The notes below the pieces were generated by a model. The model did not search any database and was not told the origin of the DNA. It worked only from the letters and a program-made list of their open reading frames with translations. A DNA stretch of 35,517 nt from Omnitrophica bacterium GWA2_41_15 (GTDB taxonomy: Bacteria > Omnitrophota > Gorgyraeia > Gygaellales > UBA12090), in the NCBI GenBank assembly GCA_919901925.1, contig CAKKQA010000102.1:1-35517 (forward strand), read 5' to 3'. Position numbers and translations under genes: made by a program. Every line of letters begins with the position of its first letter. Within the stretch, counting starts at the first letter, position 1. This document shows positions 13,277-28,206 of the stretch, in pieces.

Positions 13277-13897
13277 CTAATTTTGCTCTGTCAAGTTTTT
13301 TTTGACCACAAACTCCAGCACCACATCCGCCTGCTTTGCCGCGGCTACGTTCACTCGTGGGGACAATGCGGGGGAATTATCGATATCCGATCTTAAGTCG
13401 CCTATTATAACCAAATTCTTCTTTACCTTATGGACCTTTATGCCATCGCTTGCGCCAATTCCTCCCAATCCCGATGCCGACACGATAAACTTGCCTAAAG
13501 AAAGAAGTTCAGCAACAAGCATACTTTTAGATTCTGCCTTATCAAGGCACTCTACAATCACTTCGCAATCACTAAACAATTCCCTAACATTCTTACTATC
13601 TATTTTCGCATTTATAGTTTTAAGCTCTATGTCCGGATTAAGCCTCAACAGGTTAGCTTTAAGTGCCTCTATTTTTTTCATCCCCACTTGATCCAGAAAA
13701 TAAAACTGCCTATCTAAGTTTGACGGATCAATAACATCAAAATCTACGATAGTAAGCCTTTTAAAACCTACGCGGACAAGGTTTAAAGCGCAGTTCGACC
13801 CCAGCCCTCCGGCGCCGGCTATGCCTACGCGGGCATTCTCTATTTTTTGTAAATTTACTTTGCCTATTTTCTTGATTAAATTATTTCTCATTGTCAC
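13277..13897 (-). CDS. thiF: ThiF-like sulfur carrier adenylyltransferase (thiamine cluster)
   Basis: RVGIAGAGGLGSNCALNLVRVGFKRLTIVDFDVIDPSNLDRQFYFLDQVG; follows thiS-G-H. Confidence 0.82.
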   Translation of the reverse strand: MTMRNNLIKKIGKVNLQKIENARVGIAGAGGLGSNCALNLVRVGFKRLTIVDFDVIDPSNLDRQFYFLDQVGMKKIEALKANLLRLNPDIELKTINAKIDSKNVRELFSDCEVIVECLDKAESKSMLVAELLSLGKFIVSASGLGGIGASDGIKVHKVKKNLVIIGDLRSDIDNSPALSPRVNVAAAKQADVVLEFVVKKNLTEQN

Positions 13898-13928: not shown

Positions 13929-15041
13929 TTAAATGCGCAGCCAGTCTTTTAGAACTGGTTGATATCCTTTACGCGCCAACATTTCTTTGATTTCTACCAC
14001 GCTCCTTGTATCCGAAATCTCAAATTGAGGCGGGTTTGACATTTCAGGAAATTCTATTGTGTGCCCGCCGACTTTTGTGGAGGAGCCTGCCGACATGCGG
14101 GTAATCCCAAGCGGCAAAAGATTTTCCCGCAACTGGGAACTTTCCCGCGTCGACAAGCTAAGGCCGAGCCGCGGCAGAAAAATCCGCAAGGCAATGATTA
14201 TTTGCGCTATATTCCTATCGCTAACATTGCACGGTATTTTGAAATCTCCCGGATGCGGCCTTAACCTCGGCATGGACGCGCCTATTTCCACATCCGGAAA
14301 TTTATCCTGAAGGTATTTCGCGTGCAGGCCCATAAAGAAAACCTCTCTCCGCCAATCATTTAATCCTAATAAAACTCCCACATTTATATTTCTTATGCCG
14401 CCTTTAGCAGCTCTTTCAGGAGCATTCAGCCGAAATAGATAATCTTTTTTAGGCCCTGCCTTATGCACCTTTTCGTAAATCGCTTCGTCGTATACTTCCT
14501 GATATATGGTTAATCCGTCTACCCCCTCCTCAATTATCCCGGCATATTCTTTCTCCATAAGAGGATATATTTCTATTGATATAGAGCTAAAATATTTTTT
14601 TAGTATTCTGACGCATTCTTTGATGTACGCCGGCGGGCTTTCTTTTCGAGACTCTCCGGTAAGAATCAAAATGTGCTCCAAACCGGTCGATGAAATAAAG
14701 GCGGCTTCTTTCTTCACCCCTTCCAAACTCAAGCGCATCCTAGCAACATTATTTTTGGCATTAAACCCACAGTAGGCGCATTGATTATCGCAATAATTTG
14801 ACAGGTACATCGGCGTGTAGAGCTGGATAGTTTTGCCAAAATGCATCTGCGTCAAACGGCACGCACTCTGCGCCATTTCCTCTAAATTATTTTCTGCGGC
14901 TGGGGAAAGAAGCGCTAAAAGCTGGTTTTCGTCCTGGACTTGAGTATCGATCGCGGACTTAGCAGCCTGCGAAGAAACATCATTAAGGATTTTCTCTAGA
15001 GGAAGATTTTTATATTTTTTATAAACTTCGTAATAGCTCAT
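13929..15041 (-). CDS. thiH: 2-iminoacetate synthase ThiH (radical SAM)
   Basis: TPMYLSNYCDNQCAYCGFNAKN (CxxxCxxC), LILTGESRKESP, SMPRLRPHPGDF. Confidence 0.93.
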   Translation of the reverse strand: MSYYEVYKKYKNLPLEKILNDVSSQAAKSAIDTQVQDENQLLALLSPAAENNLEEMAQSACRLTQMHFGKTIQLYTPMYLSNYCDNQCAYCGFNAKNNVARMRLSLEGVKKEAAFISSTGLEHILILTGESRKESPPAYIKECVRILKKYFSSISIEIYPLMEKEYAGIIEEGVDGLTIYQEVYDEAIYEKVHKAGPKKDYLFRLNAPERAAKGGIRNINVGVLLGLNDWRREVFFMGLHAKYLQDKFPDVEIGASMPRLRPHPGDFKIPCNVSDRNIAQIIIALRIFLPRLGLSLSTRESSQLRENLLPLGITRMSAGSSTKVGGHTIEFPEMSNPPQFEISDTRSVVEIKEMLARKGYQPVLKDWLRI

Positions 15042-15080: not shown

Positions 15081-15149
15081 TGTAGGGGCGCCATTTATGG
15101 CGCCCGGAACAACGCATAACAAACGGGTCGGATAAATCCGACCCCTACA
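15081..15149. repeat. Family B two-hairpin repeat, copy B3
   Basis: TGTAGGGGCGCCATTTATGGCGCCC...GGGTCGGATAAATCCGACCCCTACA; overlaps the thiG stop codon. Confidence 0.88.
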
Positions 15150-15930
15150 GATGTGCAAAACCGTCACGTAAAAACCCCGTCAACGGCGAAGAAGGGTTGG
15201 CGTATTTATCCACAGGAGTAAGGCCGGCCAAATAAGCGCGCCTGCCCGCGTCGACTGCTTCCTTAAAAGCCCTTGCCATGTTAACCGGGTCGCTGGAAAT
15301 AGCTATTGCCGTATTAACCAGCACCGCCGCGCAACCAATTTCCATACACTCACAGGCTTCTGAAGGCCTGCCCAAACCCGCATCGACTATGACCGGAATC
15401 TTTATCTCATTCACGATTATCTCGATAAGTTCTTTAGTCTTCAATCCCCTACTACTTCCTATGGGTGAGCCCAGCGGCATAACAGCGGCTGCCCCAGCAT
15501 CAACAAGCCTTCTGGCAATCGATAAATCCGGGCTCATATATGGAAGCACCACAAAATCTTCTTTCGCGAGAATCTCCGTAGCTTTTAACGTCTCAAGATT
15601 ATCAGGAAGAAGATACTTATTATCCTGTATAACCTCTATCTTTATCCAATTTCCCGCGCCGCTGGCCTTTGCCAACCTTGCTATGCGCACAGCCTCATCA
15701 GCATTCCTGGCGCCGGAAGTATTCGGCATTATGATAGATTTCTTCGGGATATAATCTAAAATATTATCGGCCTTTGACCCAATATCCACCCGCCTTAACG
15801 CCACAGTCACCACTTCCGCCTGCGCTGATTCCAGGGCATCCTTCATCAGCTGATAGCTGGAAAATTTTCCCGTGCCGATAAACAGCCGGTTACTGATTGC
15901 CTTGCCGCCTATGCTCAATAAATCTGCCAC
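15145..15930 (-). CDS. thiG: Thiazole synthase ThiG
   Basis: [66 protein letters not shown]. Confidence 0.95.
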
Positions 15931-15932
15931 TT

Positions 15933-16133
15933 TTATCCTCCCGAGACAAAACTGACTATCTCTATATTATCGTTTTCCTTTAAAATAATATTTTGCCATT
16001 GATCTTTGGGGATAATGTTAAAATTATGTTCGACCACTATTTTTTCTGAAGATAATCCTTTACTGGCGAGCAAATCTCTAAGATTTGACTTTATTTCTAA
16101 ATTCTCTTCTTTACCATTTATTTTTATAATCAT
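15933..16133 (-). CDS. thiS: Sulfur carrier protein ThiS
   Basis: [66 protein letters not shown]; canonical GG C-terminus. ORF-track N-terminus is translated riboswitch; real start 16133 with GAGGTAGCGAGA SD. Confidence 0.92.
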
Positions 16134-16163: not shown

Positions 16164-16194
16164 GATAGCCTTATGCTCCAAGCATAAGGCTATC
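16164..16194 (-). promoter_or_regulatory. 14-bp hairpin between TPP aptamer and thiS (candidate expression platform)
   Basis: GATAGCCTTATGCT-N3-AGCATAAGGCTATC perfect arms. Confidence 0.55.
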
Positions 16195-16203
16195 TCTAAA
16201 CAG

Positions 16204-16352
16204 CATATCCCTACGCTGGCATTATCCAGTCCCCTCGTCCCGCTTAACAGCGGGACTTCGGGGTCCGCCTTAAGTCTTCTCAAGGCGGACAGGTTCATCG
16301 GGTAATCCGCTTTAACAGCAGAACTCTCAGGCCGTATACGGCCTCCCCGCTT
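16204..16352 (-). ncRNA. TPP (thi-box) riboswitch, with additional hairpins
   Basis: Minus strand GCGGGGAGGCCGTATACGGCCTGAGAG...ACCCGATGAACCTG...[two hairpins]...ACTGGATAATGCCAGCGTAGGGA; upstream of thiSGHF. Confidence 0.88.
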
Positions 16353-16410: not shown

Positions 16411-16908
16411 CTACCAACTAAGGAGCTTTATCCTAACCTTAGATGCATCGTCGGGATCCTCAACCTTAAATTCCGGCTTCATCAAAGACTTATGCGGTGG
16501 GATTTCACTGGTAACTATATCAACTGTCCCGGCTGTCCCGCGCTTAAGGCCGGAAACCACTCCTTGAGCAAACCCAACAGTCAATCCCGCAAGCAAATTC
16601 TCTCTGCTTGCCACATTACCGATCTCCCAAGGCACATCCGCCCAAAAAGTAGCAAGATTGGTTGCTCCATCACCGGCTTTTCCAAGCAGAGTACCGTCAA
16701 AAGATGGCTGGTTTTCCTCAACCTTTTCATTTAAATAGGAAGAGGTAAACAAATTTCCCCGTTCACCGTCTTTTAACATTGTCTCTCTTGAATAACTAAA
16801 GGTGCCGCTCGGTGTAACGCCTGCCGGGCTTTGCGGAAACGCCTGTTGGACTATCAGGAACAAAACAAAGATGACACACACTCCTAATAATACCACTGCG
16901 TTTTTCAT
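16411..16908 (-). CDS. Secreted TIGR04073-like (exosortase system-associated) protein
   Basis: Signal peptide; DGATNLATFWADVPWEIGNVASRENLLAGLTVGFAQGVVSGLKRGTAGTVDIVTSEIPPHKSLMKPEF resembles the TIGR04073 pattern. Confidence 0.6.
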   Translation of the reverse strand: MKNAVVLLGVCVIFVLFLIVQQAFPQSPAGVTPSGTFSYSRETMLKDGERGNLFTSSYLNEKVEENQPSFDGTLLGKAGDGATNLATFWADVPWEIGNVASRENLLAGLTVGFAQGVVSGLKRGTAGTVDIVTSEIPPHKSLMKPEFKVEDPDDASKVRIKLLSW

Positions 16909-17002: not shown

Positions 17003-17082
17003 TTATTTTGGCAACCAGGCTATCCTTATGTTAAGGACCCTTGGCTTTGCGTCCCAAGATTACTCTTGGTTTACCTTTTTCA
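17003..17082 (-). ncRNA. Cyclic di-GMP-I (GEMM) riboswitch
   Basis: Minus strand AAAGGTAAACCAAGAGTAATCTTGGGACGCAAAGCCAAGGGTCCTTAACATAAGGATAGCCTGGTTGCC matches GEMM-I (GGTAAACC...GGGACGCAAAGCC...AGGATAGCC.GGTTGCC). Confidence 0.9.
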
Positions 17083-17127
17083 ATAAAGCAAAACTGCAAA
17101 ATTGTCAATTGCTCAACTTACAACTGA

Positions 17128-20634: not shown

Positions 20635-20762
20635 GTGGGGACAGGTACAAAACAACCGTGGGACCAGGTCCAATTTAACCGCCTGAAGTGTCCCCACTAC
20701 TTGGGGACACTTTCCAACCGCATTTTGGACCTGGTCCCAACCGTGTTTTGGACCTGTCCCCA
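20635..20762. repeat. Family D ~128-bp imperfect inverted repeat
   Basis: GTGGGGACAGGTACAAAACAACCGTGGGACCAGGTCC...TGTCCCCACTACTTGGGGACA...GGACCTGGTCCCAACCGTGTTTTGGACCTGTCCCCA. Confidence 0.85.
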
Positions 20763-28017: not shown

Positions 28018-28206
28018 GTCATTGCGAGGAGCTTCCCCCCGTGTCATTGCGAGGAGCTATTGTCAGCTTCCAGCGACGAAGCAATCACGTTTTTTCCGCC
28101 TACGTGCTTCGCACTACGGCGGATCCGCCGTAGCAAGAATTGCGAAGGCGGAAAAGCGGGATTGCTTCGTCACCTATATGCCAAGTAAGGGTTCCTCGCA
28201 ATGACG
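28018..28206. repeat. Family A repeat A8 with duplicated left end and inner family C hairpin
   Basis: GTCATTGCGAGGAGCTTCCCCCCGTGTCATTGCGAGGAGC...; inner CCGCCTACGTGCTTCGCACTACGGCGGATCCGCCGTAGCAAGAATTGCGAAGGCGG. Confidence 0.88.

Follow-up and report, generated by a model that had tools for sequence, protein, structure and literature searches.

The TPP riboswitch that lies 5' of the thiS–thiG–thiH–thiF genes in Omnitrophica bacterium GWA2_41_15 has its J4/5, the junction between P4 and P5 beside the pyrophosphate pocket, replaced by two hairpins, and insertions at exactly this site recur in other genomes of its phylum and in Bacillota. Judged from sequence, the best explanation, to which we give a probability of about 0.68, is that this riboswitch tolerates a repeat-derived hairpin pair in J4/5 and still works. 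It would thus be one example of a recurrent, apparently tolerated variant of a known riboswitch class. In the freely accessible literature covered, no description was found of a J4/5 insertion in a TPP riboswitch or of repeats inside riboswitches.

In the window, the whole stretch of 35,517 nt analysed here, cmscan aligns the entire RF00059 model (positions 1-105) to 16359-16191 of the minus strand with 36.1 bits, which falls short of the gathering score of 54.3 bits, and default thresholds give no TPP match anywhere in the window. This alignment bears out the TPP riboswitch elements named in the initial annotation and adds the strand, which had not been given. Pfam matches on the genes, all on the minus strand, identify thiS as the first gene of the operon (15933-16133, PF02597), followed by thiG (15145-15930, PF05690), thiH (13929-15041, PF04055 and PF06968) and thiF (13277-13897, PF00899). 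A terminator-like hairpin, GUUGUUUAUA, lies at 16164-16194 on the same strand, at the position occupied in relatives by the terminator CCCTTATG..CATAAGGG-T6. Its stem is perfect over 14 bp and its U tract is unusually weak, so regulation in the window could be weakened or translational. Two further features of the window are a c-di-GMP-I-GGC riboswitch (RF03167, 68.7 bits) at 17006-17084 of the minus strand, 5' of a 165-aa ORF (16411-16908, minus strand) with no Pfam match, and an imperfect long inverted repeat at 20636-20762 with 38-nt arms of 87% identity and a further palindrome inside.

From 5' to 3' the aptamer consists of GCGGGGAGGCCGUAUACGGCCUGAGAG, P3a, ACCCGAUGAACCUG, 60 additional nucleotides (16289-16230) and CUGGAUAAUGCCAGCGUAGGGA, all on the minus strand, and P1 to P5 are all able to form in the RNA, P1 being bulged. 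According to the RF00059 alignment, the 5' strand of P2 (GGGG, 16345-16348) pairs with CCC at 16302-16300, and the P3 hairpin GGCCGUAUACGGCC occupies 16330-16343. It is followed by the UGAGA of J3-2 (16329-16325), the T-loop that binds the pyrimidine (PMC3764141), and by P3a (16307-16321), an optional stem-loop present in 552 of 907 TPP riboswitches (PMC2258182). The hairpin CTGCT..AGCGG that had been noticed after CTGAGAG is indeed there, but it is this ordinary P3a and not a further element. The 5' strand of P4 (CCUG, 16290-16293) ends in G60 (position 16290); P5 with its loop (CUGGAUAAUGCCAG) lies at 16216-16229, J5/4 (CG, C77 and G78) at 16214-16215 and the 3' strand of P4 (UAGG) at 16210-16213. 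G60, C77 and G78 (E. coli numbering) are located at the pyrophosphate or its metal, and G78 contacts the pyrophosphate directly (PMC3764141). CCUG, CG and UAGG are intact, and the pocket residues U59, G60, C77, G78 and A80 are thereby retained. The proposal that the insertion site contacts the pyrophosphate needs qualifying: the insert adjoins G60, C77 and G78, and these contact residues are all kept and not replaced. The RNA resembles RF00059 (the THI element) in P1 to P5, UGAGA, ACCC, AACCUG, CG-UAGGGA and the thiamine genes downstream, and differs from it in having a 60-nt hairpin pair as J4/5 instead of 2 nt and a score under the family threshold.

The covariance alignment places the extra sequence between CCUG of P4 and the GCG that comprises the end of P5 and J5/4, ahead of UAGGGA. 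In uninserted relatives the corresponding segment reads AACCUG-AU-CUGG, with the 2-nt AU as J4/5. Alignment, relatives and folding agree on an insertion of 60 nt at 16230-16289 that replaces A61-U62, in line with the two-hairpin insert of about 60 nt described earlier at J4/5, and the covariance alignment excludes P3 or P3a as the insertion site. P3a is the only optional variable part named for TPP riboswitches in the available text of Barrick and Breaker (2007, PMC2258182); unlike P3a as treated there, the part that varies here is the P4-P5 junction beside the pyrophosphate pocket, into which a hairpin pair is inserted. Hairpin A (16264-16289) is UCCGCCUUGAG-AAGA-CUUAAGGCGGA and has 11 bp, including one G-U pair. 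Hairpin B (16231-16263) is CCCC-GAA-GUCCCGCU-GUUA-AGCGGGAC-GA-GGGG, in which a 4-bp stem, a GAA/GA internal loop and an 8-bp stem follow one another; its 3' loop strand, previously written GAG, is GA by folding. The isolated insert folds with -43.3 kcal/mol (z = -9.1 against dinucleotide shuffles) and the entire leader gives z = -8.8; the pattern CCGCCTT..AAGGCGG has 0 occurrences expected by chance in the window. The insert begins directly 3' of G60 and replaces the two nucleotides before P5, leaving the opposite strand, C77-G78, unbroken. Linkers of 0, 0 and 1 nt between P4 and A, A and B, and B and P5 turn the internal loop between P4 and P5 into a compact four-way junction. The full aptamer in the four-way-junction fold has a free energy of -69.6 kcal/mol, or -73.1 kcal/mol with the remainder free to refold, which is 4.6-8.1 kcal/mol above the ligand-free minimum of -77.7 kcal/mol. 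A, B and P5 are formed in both folds; P4 and P2 are absent from the ligand-free minimum, which counts against the explanation favoured here.

The insertion is neither universal among relatives nor unique to the window. RF00059 was run against 58 close genomes. Most gave normal aptamers, among them two genomes of the same family (G004 and G005) with a 2-nt J4/5 (CCTGATCTGG), and in four others a long insert occupies the site. The hairpins are therefore not conserved in all relatives. A pattern search, which demanded intact P5, CG and AACCTG, found inserts of about 45-105 nt in 19 of 386 genomes of the phylum, which a second scan, through its named records, identifies as Omnitrophota. That scan contributed a further five Omnitrophota, including STB_55, which has two inserted TPP riboswitches, and five Bacillota (mostly Syntrophomonadaceae), and the fetched loci added one insert of 153 nt (L137). 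Inserts at exactly J4/5, 46-153 nt long, are thus present in 25 Omnitrophota genomes, the window's own counted, and 5 Bacillota genomes, so that the single accidental landing first envisaged gives way to a recurrently used site. Folding shows exactly two adjacent hairpins in 25 of the 30 inserts. Their linkers are short (0-3 nt) and yield a compact four-way junction, with 0-3 nt between P4 and A, 0 nt between A and B in 18/25 and 0 nt between B and P5 in 17/25. Matches of the named-genome scan in Flavobacterium, Pseudomonas, Calothrix, Coriobacteriaceae, Thermomicrobium and similar genomes were set aside as chance or as normal TPP riboswitches with a stray upstream AACCTG. A cyanobacterial contig (L068) resembles another inserted case. 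Long P3a regions occur in a few relatives (L024, L138, L156, L157 and L159); those of L038 and L138, from two genomes, are 120-131 nt long and alike in sequence. A group I intron (L034, 47-290, minus strand) lies close to the inserted TPP riboswitch of G208.

Some of the inserts are demonstrably of repeat origin, and for the window's insert such an origin is likely. Units of the insert in G064 are found elsewhere in G064, G208, G319 and the window's own genome, where 11 matches to hairpin A of that insert occur. Many inserts have UUC/UUC-like loops in hairpin A and GAA/GAA loops in hairpin B, as expected of one unit followed by its inverted copy. The genome of the window contains no second copy of the window's insert. 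It does contain four further GTCCCGC..GCGGGAC palindromes, against 0 in a reversed-pattern control, and two of the four resemble hairpin B in their GA-type loops and in their outer stem. The resemblance to dispersed palindromic repeats noted at the outset therefore holds for the hairpins of some relatives, which are dispersed in their hosts, and extends to the window only as a stem-level likeness of B, its insert being single copy. Another two-hairpin palindrome has at least 13 copies in the window's genome, one of them at 28092-28155, nested within the outer stem GACGAAGCAATC..GATTGCTTCGTC. REP/BIME elements, which are moved by TnpA-REP (RAYT) transposases (PMC6006769), offer a parallel, being dispersed palindromic units often arranged as inverted pairs; the window's insert likewise consists of two hairpins but, unlike REP/BIME, is present once. 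Its genome has three Y1_Tnp (PF01797) genes, beside which no palindromic unit of the form searched for was found.

An insert beside the pyrophosphate site, a low RF00059 score and a terminator with a weak U tract could also mean that the switch was disabled by the insertion and is now a decaying relic. This is quite unlikely, since the cores of the inserted aptamers are undiminished: over 35 aligned core positions, identity is 94.95% in the 30 inserted aptamers and 95.07% in the uninserted ones (Mann-Whitney p = 0.83), a comparison that is partly circular because the search pattern itself required P5, CG and AACCTG. In agreement with this, none of the 18 inserted loci tested reaches the Rfam threshold despite intact cores, and both uninserted controls pass, indicating that the score deficit is the effect of the insert. 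Most inserted loci, moreover, keep a strong terminator with a T run, and one type of insert persists in three families. Where an ORF was found downstream of an inserted aptamer and checked with Pfam, it encodes ThiS, Thi4 or hydroxyethylthiazole kinase; several inserted loci have no clear first gene by the simple rule used. Toleration, as proposed in the initial annotation, is thus consistent with the intact core, and the inserted variant is most likely functional as a switch. That the feature is an assembly artefact, given the fragmented metagenome assembly from which the window comes, or a set of chance hairpins has a negligible probability. Independent assemblies have it as well, and so does the complete Candidatus Velamenicoccus archaeovorus genome (L066), a recurrence that refutes both readings; the folding z-score of the insert also speaks against chance.

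The least improbable alternative, although still unlikely, is that Omnitrophota inherited a TPP riboswitch with the two-hairpin J4/5 domain from early on and then lost the domain many times, with no separate insertions. The constant two-hairpin plan would fit such descent, as would two shared insert types. One of these, 57 nt long in G024, is common to G024, G289 and G197 from three families, where the single-copy inserts are 84-86% homologous, with compensatory changes in two pairs and disruption of none. The other, found in G064, G208, G319, G047 and two further genomes, has 10 of 35 pairs changed on both sides among its six homologous inserts, where shuffles give 6.0 and slid controls 2-6. 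These pair changes speak for long-term maintenance of the helices, although their statistical weight is modest. The sharing of a type may stem from descent, from horizontal transfer or from one repeat having landed more than once. Most inserts, however, have no recognisable sequence similarity to one another, and Bacillota show the same plan. Inserted and uninserted TPP riboswitches also occur within the same families, the window's included: among 69 sampled TPP riboswitches in families with listed P5 sites, 14 are inserted, 55 have exactly 2 nt and none is intermediate. The identical site and plan in two phyla, the compensated pairs and the tight linkers could instead mean that the hairpins have been recruited to a new role, for example to stabilise the pyrophosphate-sensor arm, to tune affinity or to respond to a second input. 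The RNAs L026 and L073, which have an additional hairpin pair in J5/4, between G78 and P4, and thus four hairpins around the P4-P5 junction, may be counted on the same side. Recruitment is nevertheless as improbable as decay, because the inserts vary freely in loop, length and sequence and have no conserved loop or pocket, and because inverted copies of dispersed units account for the GAA/GAA and UUC/UUC internal loops that recur.

We therefore favour toleration of a repeat-derived hairpin pair by a working switch, and both TPP binding and the descent of the window's insert from a repeat are what we infer. A two-hairpin palindromic element, probably from the dispersed repeats common in these genomes, would enter J4/5 after G60, and such entries would have occurred repeatedly across genomes. 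Since little or nothing separates the hairpins from each other and from the adjoining helices, the P4-P5 loop would become a four-way junction in which P4 and P5 still stack through the unbroken C77-G78 strand, and A and B would stack on each other, giving a self-contained side arm attached to just one strand of the pyrophosphate-sensor helix. On the best reading, it is this arrangement that makes the inserts tolerable: the pyrophosphate pocket and the L5-P3 contact would be preserved, and the switch would still work. A bolder proposal, that the P4-P5 junction is a general plug-in site at which hairpin pairs, whether derived from mobile palindromes or not, complete a four-way junction and that in some lineages these have been recruited to tune or add ligand sensing, is speculative and rather doubtful.

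J4/5 is a natural insertion site within the arm that binds the ligand in a riboswitch ranking among the most thoroughly studied, and it has been used repeatedly in Omnitrophota, very few members of which have been cultured. Because all the inserted loci tested score under the Rfam threshold, such loci will be missed by annotation pipelines, and Rfam searches at present undercount the TPP riboswitches of this phylum. The inserted aptamers offer a ready test of how far an RNA pocket tolerates a neighbouring four-way junction, and they suggest a route by which dispersed palindromes add structural parts to functional RNAs.
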